A DNA stretch of 64,000 bases from Gaiellales bacterium (lineage in GTDB: Bacteria > Actinomycetota > Thermoleophilia > Gaiellales > JAICJC01), in contig DASUHM010000069.1 of assembly GCA_036273515.1 (NCBI GenBank), forward strand, positions 1-64,000, given 5' to 3'. Shown here piece after piece: positions 61,147 to 63,131 of the stretch. How positions within the stretch are numbered: the stretch's first letter is position 1; each line of letters begins with the position of its first letter. The notes below the pieces were generated by a model. The model was not told where the DNA came from, did no database searches, and saw only the letters and a program-made list of their open reading frames with translations. The translations under genes were made by a program, and so were the position numbers.

Positions 61147-62607
61147 ATGGCTCCGGCGTTCACGCTTCCGAGCACGAGGGGCGCGCCGGTGGCGCTGGCC
61201 GACCTGCTCGCGGCCGGTTCCGCCGTCGTCATGTTCGTCACCGACGACTGCCCCACCTGCGAGCTGGCGCTGCGGCGCCTGGCGGCCGCCGACGCCGAAG
61301 TCGCGGTCGTCTGCGAGGCCCCGCCGGCGGCCGCCTCCCGCCTCGCCGCGAGGACGGGTTTCCGCGGGCGGATGCTGTCCGAGCCGGCGCCGTACGAGAC
61401 GTCGCGCGCCTACGGGCTCGAGGCGGTGCCGACGACGGTCGCGATCGCGCCGGGGGGCGAGGTGACCGAGACCGTGGTGGGCTGGGACGCGGCCGCGCTC
61501 TCGGCGCTGGTCGGGATCGACCTGGGCGGCGAGGCCCCGGCGCGCAAGCCCGGCTGCGCCGCCAAGTCGACCTACGACGCCGCCCAGCTCGCCGCCGACG
61601 CCGACACCGGCGGCGACGACCCGGAGGCGATGTTCGAGCTCGGCTGGACGGACGGCCTGCCGACCGTCGCGCCGACGCCCGAGCGGGTCGCCGCGATGCT
61701 GGACGGGCGCGACCCGGCGGTCTCGCTCGGCCCGGTGCCGCCCGGAATGGGCGAGGCGACGCTCGAGCGGGTGGCGGCCTGCGCCGTTCTGGCCGGCTGC
61801 CGGCCGGAGCACTTCGCCGTCGTCGAGGCGGCCGTGCGGGCGATGCTCGTGCCCGGCTTCAACCTGCACGGCCAGGCGGTGACGACCCAGCCCGCCGGCC
61901 AGATCGCCGTCGTCAACGGGCCGGTGCGGGCCGCCGCCGGGCTGAACTCACGTATGGGCGCGCTCGGGCCGGGGCCGCGCGCGAACGCCACCGTCGGCCG
62001 GGCGCTTCGGCTCGTCGTGGCCCTCACCGGCGAGGGCATGCCGGGCCGGCTCGACCGCTCCACCCTCGGCCAGGCGGGCAAGGTCGGCACCTGCATCGCC
62101 GAGGACGAGGAGCGCAGCCCCTGGCCGCCGCTCCACGTCGAGCGCGGACTGGCGGCCGGGGCATCGGCGGTCACGCTGCTCGCGGGCGACGCCCCGCTCT
62201 CGATCTCCGAGCACCGCAGTCGCACGCCGGAGGAGCTGGCGGCGGCGCTCGGCTGGGGGGCGGCGACGCTATGGAGCCCGAACTGGTGGCCGATCGGCGC
62301 AGCCACGCTGTTCGTCATCTGCCCCGAGCACGCCGACACGCTGGCGGCCGGCGGATGGAGCAAGGCGGACGTCCGCCATGCGATCTGGGAGACCGTGCAG
62401 CGGCCCGCCGGCGAGCTCCGCCGCGGCGAGTTCACGGACCGGGTCGGCCAGGCGGCCGACCCCGAGCTCGTCCCCAAGTGGGACTCGCCCGACGACATCC
62501 TGCTGATCGTCGCCGGCGGCGAGGCCGGCCGCTTCTCGGCGGTCTTCGGCCCGTGCGTCGGCATGGACTGGTCACCCGTCACCCAGGAGGTGCGATGCGA
62601 TACGTGA
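61147..62607 (+). CDS. Thioredoxin-fold protein fused to UGSC-associated domain
   Basis: A 486-residue protein. Residues 1-120 are a thioredoxin-like fold with CPTC redox site (VTDDCPTCELALRRL) and cis-Pro loop (EAVPTTVAI). The remaining ~350 residues are a separate domain (MFELGWTDGLPTVAPTPERV, AACAVLAGCRPEHF, AGKVGTCIAEDEERSPWPPL, FGPCVGMDW) that I cannot assign; scattered Cys suggest thiol chemistry. It overlaps the UGSC selenoprotein gene by 13 nt, so the two should be cotranscribed and probably form one redox system. TAGGTT is 6 nt before the ATG. Confidence 0.7.
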   Translation: MAPAFTLPSTRGAPVALADLLAAGSAVVMFVTDDCPTCELALRRLAAADAEVAVVCEAPPAAASRLAARTGFRGRMLSEPAPYETSRAYGLEAVPTTVAIAPGGEVTETVVGWDAAALSALVGIDLGGEAPARKPGCAAKSTYDAAQLAADADTGGDDPEAMFELGWTDGLPTVAPTPERVAAMLDGRDPAVSLGPVPPGMGEATLERVAACAVLAGCRPEHFAVVEAAVRAMLVPGFNLHGQAVTTQPAGQIAVVNGPVRAAAGLNSRMGALGPGPRANATVGRALRLVVALTGEGMPGRLDRSTLGQAGKVGTCIAEDEERSPWPPLHVERGLAAGASAVTLLAGDAPLSISEHRSRTPEELAAALGWGAATLWSPNWWPIGAATLFVICPEHADTLAAGGWSKADVRHAIWETVQRPAGELRRGEFTDRVGQAADPELVPKWDSPDDILLIVAGGEAGRFSAVFGPCVGMDWSPVTQEVRCDT

Positions 62608-63131
62608 GCCCCTACGACCCCGCCGCCCGTACGCCGGTCGCGGCCGCCCCACGGCCCGAGTCGCTGGCCGGCCGCACCGTGGCGCTGCTGGACATCTCGA
62701 AGAACCGCGGTGCGGAGTTCCTCGACCGGATCGAGGGCCATCTGCGCGAGCGCGGCGCCGAGGTGGAGCGCTATGCGAAGCCGCTCTTCTCCCGGCCCGC
62801 CGCGGGCGAGCTGGTCGAGCGCATCGCCGCCCGGGCCGACCTCGCCGTCGAGGGCCTCGCCGATTGAGGATCGTGCGTGTCGTGCAGTGTGCACGACCTG
62901 GTGCGGCTGGAGCGGCTGGGCGTCGCCACCGCCGGCGTGGGCACGGAGCCGTTCGCCGACGAGGCGCTCGAGCAGGCGGCCCTGCTCGGCATGCCCGGCT
63001 ACCGGATGGTGTGGGTGCCACACCCGGTGCAGCTCCTGACCGCGGCGCAGCTGGACGCGCGGGCGGACGCCGCCATGGAGGTGATCCTGGGCCGGTTGCT
63101 GGCAGATAGTTCGACTGCTAATATTTCGTGA
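62595..63131 (+). CDS. UGSC-family selenoprotein (in-frame UGA = Sec91)
   Basis: Reading through TGA at 62865-62867 gives one 178-residue protein: ALLDISKNRGAEFLDRIEGH, KPLFSRPAAGELVERIAARA, DLAVEGLAD-U-GSCVSCSVHD, LLGMPGYRMVWVPHPVQLL. The UGSC motif (Sec91-Gly-Ser-Cys94, further Cys97) defines the UGSC protein family, in which Cys or Sec occupies the first position. A hairpin with features of a bacterial SECIS lies directly downstream of the UGA. Both halves are in the same frame and neither makes sense alone. AGGAGG is 5 nt before the ATG. It is coupled to the thioredoxin-fold gene; function is presumably thiol/selenol redox. Sec machinery genes are not in the window. Confidence 0.82.
62879..62897 (+). 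promoter_or_regulatory. bSECIS-like hairpin after the UGA codon
   Basis: GTCGTGC (62879-62885), loop AGTGT (62886-62890), GCACGAC (62891-62897): a perfect 7-bp stem. The loop starts 19 nt after the last base of the UGA (62867) and contains G at its second position, within the range used by bacterial SelB-dependent SECIS elements. Confidence 0.65.

Follow-up and report, generated by a model that had tools for sequence, protein, structure and literature searches.

The window analysed here, a 64,000-nt stretch of contig DASUHM010000069.1 from a Gaiellales bacterium, carries near its end two overlapping genes on the same strand (Table 1). The upstream ORF (61147–62607) encodes a thioredoxin-fold domain followed by a second domain, here called dom2, and overlaps the downstream gene by 13 nt. 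The downstream frame opens at ATG 62595, reaches the residues GLAD and then TGA at 62865–62867, continues in the same frame as GSCVSCSVHDLVRLERLG ... and stops at TGA 63129–63131, giving 178 codons (62595–63128). Its translation through the internal TGA matches the Pfam family UGSC (PF24696) with 154.2 bits over residues 4–168 (cut-off 25) and NCBIfam NF041046 with 134.7 bits (cut-off 125), in both cases on either side of the UGA, and the motif U91-G-S-C aligns in register with the homologues. Both hallmarks of the family, a score above the curated cut-off and a Sec or Cys followed by Gly-Ser-Cys, are present, and the nearest database homologue comes from a Thermoleophilia metagenome-assembled genome, which makes this class the most likely source of the window. 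The original prediction, made from the letters of the window, had placed the frame, its in-frame UGA and its stop exactly here and had named the product a probable UGSC selenoprotein with Sec at residue 91; the frame is as described, and the assignment is upheld by the two family profiles and by the comparison of UGA- and Cys-type homologues below.

Table 1. Coordinates of the features in the window, of the selenocysteine genes elsewhere in the assembly (contig C35) and of related features at loci of other genomes and plasmids (L numbers).
Feature	Position	Strand	Basis or remark
Thioredoxin-fold N-terminal domain of partner, CPTC motif	61147..61551	+	Pfam Redoxin/AhpC-TSA
Partner domain dom2, C-terminal part of the same ORF, stop included	61552..62607	+	no family; adjoins UGSC in 114/114 loci
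Shine-Dalgarno-like AGGAGGT 5' of UGSC start	62585..62591	+	sequence reading
Predicted UGSC-family selenoprotein gene, 178 aa with Sec91, stop included	62595..63131	+	PF24696, NF041046
TGA, predicted selenocysteine codon, residue 91	62865..62867	+	TGA in window, 80/80 homologues and 8 relatives; TGC/TGT in Cys forms
Cys94 codon, presumed resolving Cys of U-x-x-C	62874..62876	+	column invariant in homologue alignment
Putative bacterial SECIS hairpin, 7 bp, loop AGUGU at 62886-62890	62879..62897	+	covariation; missing in Cys forms
Terminating TGA, UGSC gene	63129..63131	+	nearby ends with TAA/TAG or TGA in homologues
selA	C35:69325-70596		508 bits
selB	C35:70608-72068		327 bits
UGA-type UGSC gene with SECIS, Paracoccus ferrooxidans pFER4	L254 7462-8031		annotated as split/truncated hypothetical
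UGA-type UGSC gene with SECIS, Acidovorax sp. T1 p2-T1	L251 7428-7943		annotated as split/truncated hypothetical
Partial tRNA-Sec copies	L196 3963-4027, 4416-4445, 6058-6125; L198 12400-12451, 14408-14435; L199 12658-12721; L200 9016-9079		

The identity of residue 91 was compared across hundreds of UGSC homologues, collected from a single genome for each species with search patterns that left out the Sec codon. TGA occupies this position in all 80 of the best of these homologues, read from genome contigs, and in eight relatives; in the first comparative set UGA is found in 89 of 89. The best 80 come from Actinomycetota, Chloroflexota, Proteobacteria, Acidobacteriota, Myxococcota and other phyla. 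A wider draw of the phylum brought in four homologues (L159, L175, L178 and L179) with TGC or TGT instead, reading CGSC, in which the hairpin described below is gone (one to four of the seven pairs left), and plasmid-borne UGSC genes too include Cys forms. Among cultured relatives, Actinomycetospora chibensis, Ilumatobacter nonamiensis and Paracoccus ferrooxidans have the Sec form, and Arthrobacter has the Cys form. The Cys replacements for which the original prediction had suggested aligning homologues thus exist, albeit rarely, and every relative read has UGA or, occasionally, Cys where an unrelated residue would have counted against it. The downstream sense codons, whose loss it had also named as contrary evidence, are retained: dN/dS against the nearest homologue is 0.175 after the UGA and 0.16 before it, by which measure the codons beyond the UGA are under purifying selection. 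Among divergent members (L022–L025 and L182), UGGC, UATC and UDGC replace UGSC with the UGA retained. A search of viral contigs found no UGSC homologue.

The putative SECIS element (GUCGUGC-AGUGU-GCACGAC, 62879–62897) starts 11 nt past the UGA and has a 7-bp stem, a loop AGUGU that lies 18 nt from the UGA with G in its second position and a folding energy of −16.2 kcal/mol for 38 nt; its stem, its distance of 11 nt and the G in its loop match what had been predicted. By itself the hairpin is weak evidence, and the window alone does not go beyond chance. Stems of at least 7 bp in bacterial-SECIS geometry occur at 25 of the 1,055 TGA triplets of this GC-rich window, long open frames lie on both sides of about 120 TGAs, the local fold at the UGA does not stand out from that of shuffled sequences (z = −1.27) and an Rfam search of the window returned one tRNA and no SECIS family. 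The case for a selenoprotein instead follows from comparative data. Across 44 distinct UGA-type sequences, 97.4% of the stem pairs form and five of the seven pairs show two-sided changes, a level of pairing and covariation reached in 0 of 500 shuffles; controls slid along the sequence fail too. Codon choice points the same way. The loop Ser is encoded by AGT in 84 of 84 sequences while Ser93 of the G-S-C motif uses mixed codons (p = 7e-30, in a test that, like the others here, ignores the kinship of the sequences), and Asp at the base of the stem is GAC rather than GAT by 82 to 6, compared with 17 to 41 for Asp outside the stem. The hairpin therefore looks functional by covariation, and at the level of sequence comparison the UGA encodes a conserved residue that is exchangeable with Cys and lies under a conserved SECIS. 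That the UGA arose by chance or sequencing error, or separates two genes, as might be supposed where hairpins and open frames are so common, has a negligible probability and is already refuted by its conservation in all the closest homologues from several phyla, with exact Cys replacement in a few. On the strength of this comparison we hold it very likely that UGA 62865 is decoded by SelB-dependent read-through under the hairpin at 62879–62897 to yield a UGSC selenoprotein.

Of the selenocysteine machinery that the original prediction had proposed to look for in the genome, selA and selB were located side by side on one contig (C35), both with open frames, and of 61 relatives the seven whose genomes bear UGSC all have selA as well; neither selD nor tRNA-Sec turned up in the draft assembly (98 contigs, 96.6% complete). 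The eight best candidates of a tRNA-Sec model in this genome were rejected as tRNA-Ser, Arg, Leu and Tyr. A strict tRNA-Sec pattern gave no match; a looser one finds the tRNA in relatives. Genomes of the same genus and family have both selD and tRNA-Sec, the latter called by ARAGORN and Rfam in most of them. In several relatives, incomplete copies of the tRNA-Sec 3' half also lie 0.8–14 kb downstream of the intact gene, as left by repeated mobile-element integration at selC, and such copies may explain assembly breaks there.

The two missing genes could mean that selC and selD were lost in this strain, in which case the UGA would be a true stop and the 3' half of the gene a recent relic. Their absence from a nearly complete assembly favours such a loss, as does the stretch near C7:950, where the gene that adjoins selC in relatives is followed by another gene with no tRNA. 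We nevertheless regard it as very improbable, given that selA and selB remain open, the hairpin is perfect and codons after the UGA are constrained nearly as strongly as those before it. The positions expected for the missing genes, moreover, lie near contig ends. The copy of the selC-adjoining gene ends about 1 kb into contig C7, and contig C13 has, 2.1 kb from its end, a segment that matches the beginning of the selD contig in a relative, so that selD would be expected just beyond that end; in a relative of the same genus, 78 nt separate selC itself from the edge of its contig. The absence of selD and tRNA-Sec is most simply read as a matter of assembly gaps.

The upstream gene had been predicted to encode a thioredoxin-fold fusion protein and to form a redox pair with the selenoprotein. 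Its first part indeed matches Redoxin/AhpC-TSA, and the 13-nt overlap is as claimed. Dom2 (61552–62604) matches no Pfam or NCBIfam family; its structure model is confident (pLDDT 85.7), and Foldseek found no PDB match for it at E ≤ 0.001. The proposed partnership is supported across loci, with dom2 adjoining UGSC on the same strand in 114 of 114 (111 upstream and three downstream). In 78 of 80 loci dom2 is extended N-terminally by 100 aa or more, with CxxC in 65 of these, and the remaining two are cut by contig ends. Many polar residues of dom2 are invariant, and its invariant positions include Cys83, Arg143 and Lys177 in the numbering of the 61552–62604 domain. In Variovorax boronicumulans a CGSC-type UGSC and dom2 form a single chain. 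By sequence and gene order, UGSC and dom2 constitute a conserved module with a link to thioredoxin, encoded by two genes or fused into one. On two haloarchaeal plasmids (L256 6345–8981 and L257 5358–7960), copies of dom2 flank a Cys-type UGSC on both sides.

Beyond the pair, the wider neighbourhood looked lineage-specific when ORFs at 80 loci were clustered without a gene caller, and genes such as those for thioredoxin reductase or CoA transferase do not as a rule occur within 4 kb at actinobacterial loci. The pair neighbours trxB and trxA on an Arthrobacter plasmid, and on plasmids of Variovorax SRS16, Roseovarius, Haloterrigena and V. boronicumulans it lies beside trxB or a gene for a TrxB-like enzyme. 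The UGSC gene of Paracoccus ferrooxidans pFER4 is near selB. Haloarchaeal clusters with Cys-form UGSC contain CoA transferases, CoA-ester lyases and TRAP or TTT transporters, these catabolic contexts being those of distant, mostly Cys-type relatives of the window gene.

The AlphaFold2 model of UGSC (pLDDT 91.5, pTM 0.87) has alternating strands and helices in a Rossmann-like arrangement and places Sec91 where helix 3 begins. Its Foldseek matches in the PDB are generic alpha/beta folds, with no thioredoxin among the 50 top matches shown, and searching the PDB by sequence with UGSC, dom2 and a GRDB protein brought up nothing meaningful. A thioredoxin fold for UGSC was rejected on the model and these matches; the protein is thus not predicted to be thioredoxin-like, unlike the 'likely Trx-like fold' proposed in an ocean-metagenome study (PMC2398784).

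GrdB and PrdB, the Sec subunits of glycine and proline reductase, carry out reductive cleavage with Sec. The Pfam GRDB profile (PF07355) ends exactly at the Sec codon, leaving the UGTGTRCG tail out of the model, and ordinary ORF calls of actinobacterial GrdB genes (L201–L213) also stop there. UGSC was therefore compared with actinobacterial GRDB proteins to which the Sec tail had been added back. In hhalign, UGSC aligned with the GrdB/PrdB Sec segment, Sec on Sec, at 94% probability (89–92% with the Sec column masked), a match of about 65 aligned residues obtained with one template and small alignments. The score of 48.7 exceeds those of 100 shuffled decoys (28.0 at the highest) and that of the reversed sequence (12.6); control probabilities were below 1% for selA, selD and dom2 and 3.4% for GrdE. 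Only the Sec segment aligns; Pfam finds no GRDB match in UGSC and none in the genome. Dom2 was rejected as a relative of GrdE (hhalign probability 0.3% against the GrdE alignment). A group of short actinobacterial proteins (L217–L230) matches only GRDB positions 200–345 and runs past the TGA with P-x-U-P-x-C; these probably make up a further selenoprotein family, akin to PrdB.

The pairing of UGSC with a partner that in most loci also bears a thioredoxin domain points towards a two-protein reductase powered by thioredoxin. In the scheme we propose, Sec91, placed where a helix of the Rossmann-like fold begins, would act as the nucleophile that attacks the substrate, and Cys94 would resolve it as a selenenylsulfide. 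The partner (61147–62607) would then re-reduce UGSC through its CPTC site, with electrons passing from NADPH through thioredoxin reductase to the pair, and dom2 would bind or activate the substrate. By analogy with GrdB/PrdB, the reaction may be the reductive cleavage of a small acid. Taken whole, the selenol half of a thioredoxin-driven two-protein reductase with a small acid as candidate substrate is, in our judgement, the probable explanation, held with some reserve. A selenol peroxidase or general thiol-disulfide oxidoreductase is an unlikely alternative to such a cleavage enzyme: the U-x-x-C motif and the fused Redoxin/AhpC-TSA domain speak for it, and PMC2398784 groups UGSC with Trx-like redox proteins, but the UGSC model is Rossmann-like, and an obligate partner with invariant polar residues, together with the catabolic operons, fits a specific metabolic substrate better.

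UGSC and its obligate thioredoxin-dom2 partner, the fold of dom2 being apparently unmatched, might constitute an undescribed class of thioredoxin-driven selenol (or thiol) reductases that have a Sec segment in common with glycine and proline reductases and serve small-carboxylic-acid catabolism in Actinomycetota, Proteobacteria, other phyla and haloarchaea, a generalization we put forward tentatively and with more doubt than confidence. The family is widespread: PMC2398784 counts UGSC among the commonest selenoprotein families in aquatic metagenomes and, with 255 Sec and 21 Cys forms, among the most abundant in ocean samples. Its genes remain annotated as broken ORFs on named plasmids such as pFER4. 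The universal partner, the link to thioredoxin and the profile match to the GrdB/PrdB Sec segment give this orphan family an enzymatic hypothesis that can be tested.

Among known systems, the thioredoxin-like (UxxC) selenoproteins share the U-x-x-C motif, but UGSC is predicted to be Rossmann-like and the thioredoxin fold resides in its partner instead. The 'Unknown_1' domain of ocean metagenomes, described in PMC2398784 as a UGSC fusion partner with a conserved Cys, is possibly dom2. GrdB/PrdB (PF07355 plus Sec tail) have in common with UGSC a strand-Sec-helix element, a UGxxxRC-like motif and a later HP or P.G element. The match, however, is limited to about 65 residues of a 178-aa protein, the partner is not GrdE-like and the window has no GrdC/GrdD-like neighbour; the whole-subunit GRDB profile and the GrdE/PrdA-type (pyruvoyl) partner that define GrdB/PrdB are both missing. 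With the UGSC family itself (PF24696/NF041046), the window gene shares a full-length match and Sec91-Gly-Ser-Cys, and nothing essential differs. By its sequence it is an ordinary member of this already named selenoprotein family, to which the present comparison adds a universal partner, a thioredoxin link and a GrdB/PrdB-like Sec segment.
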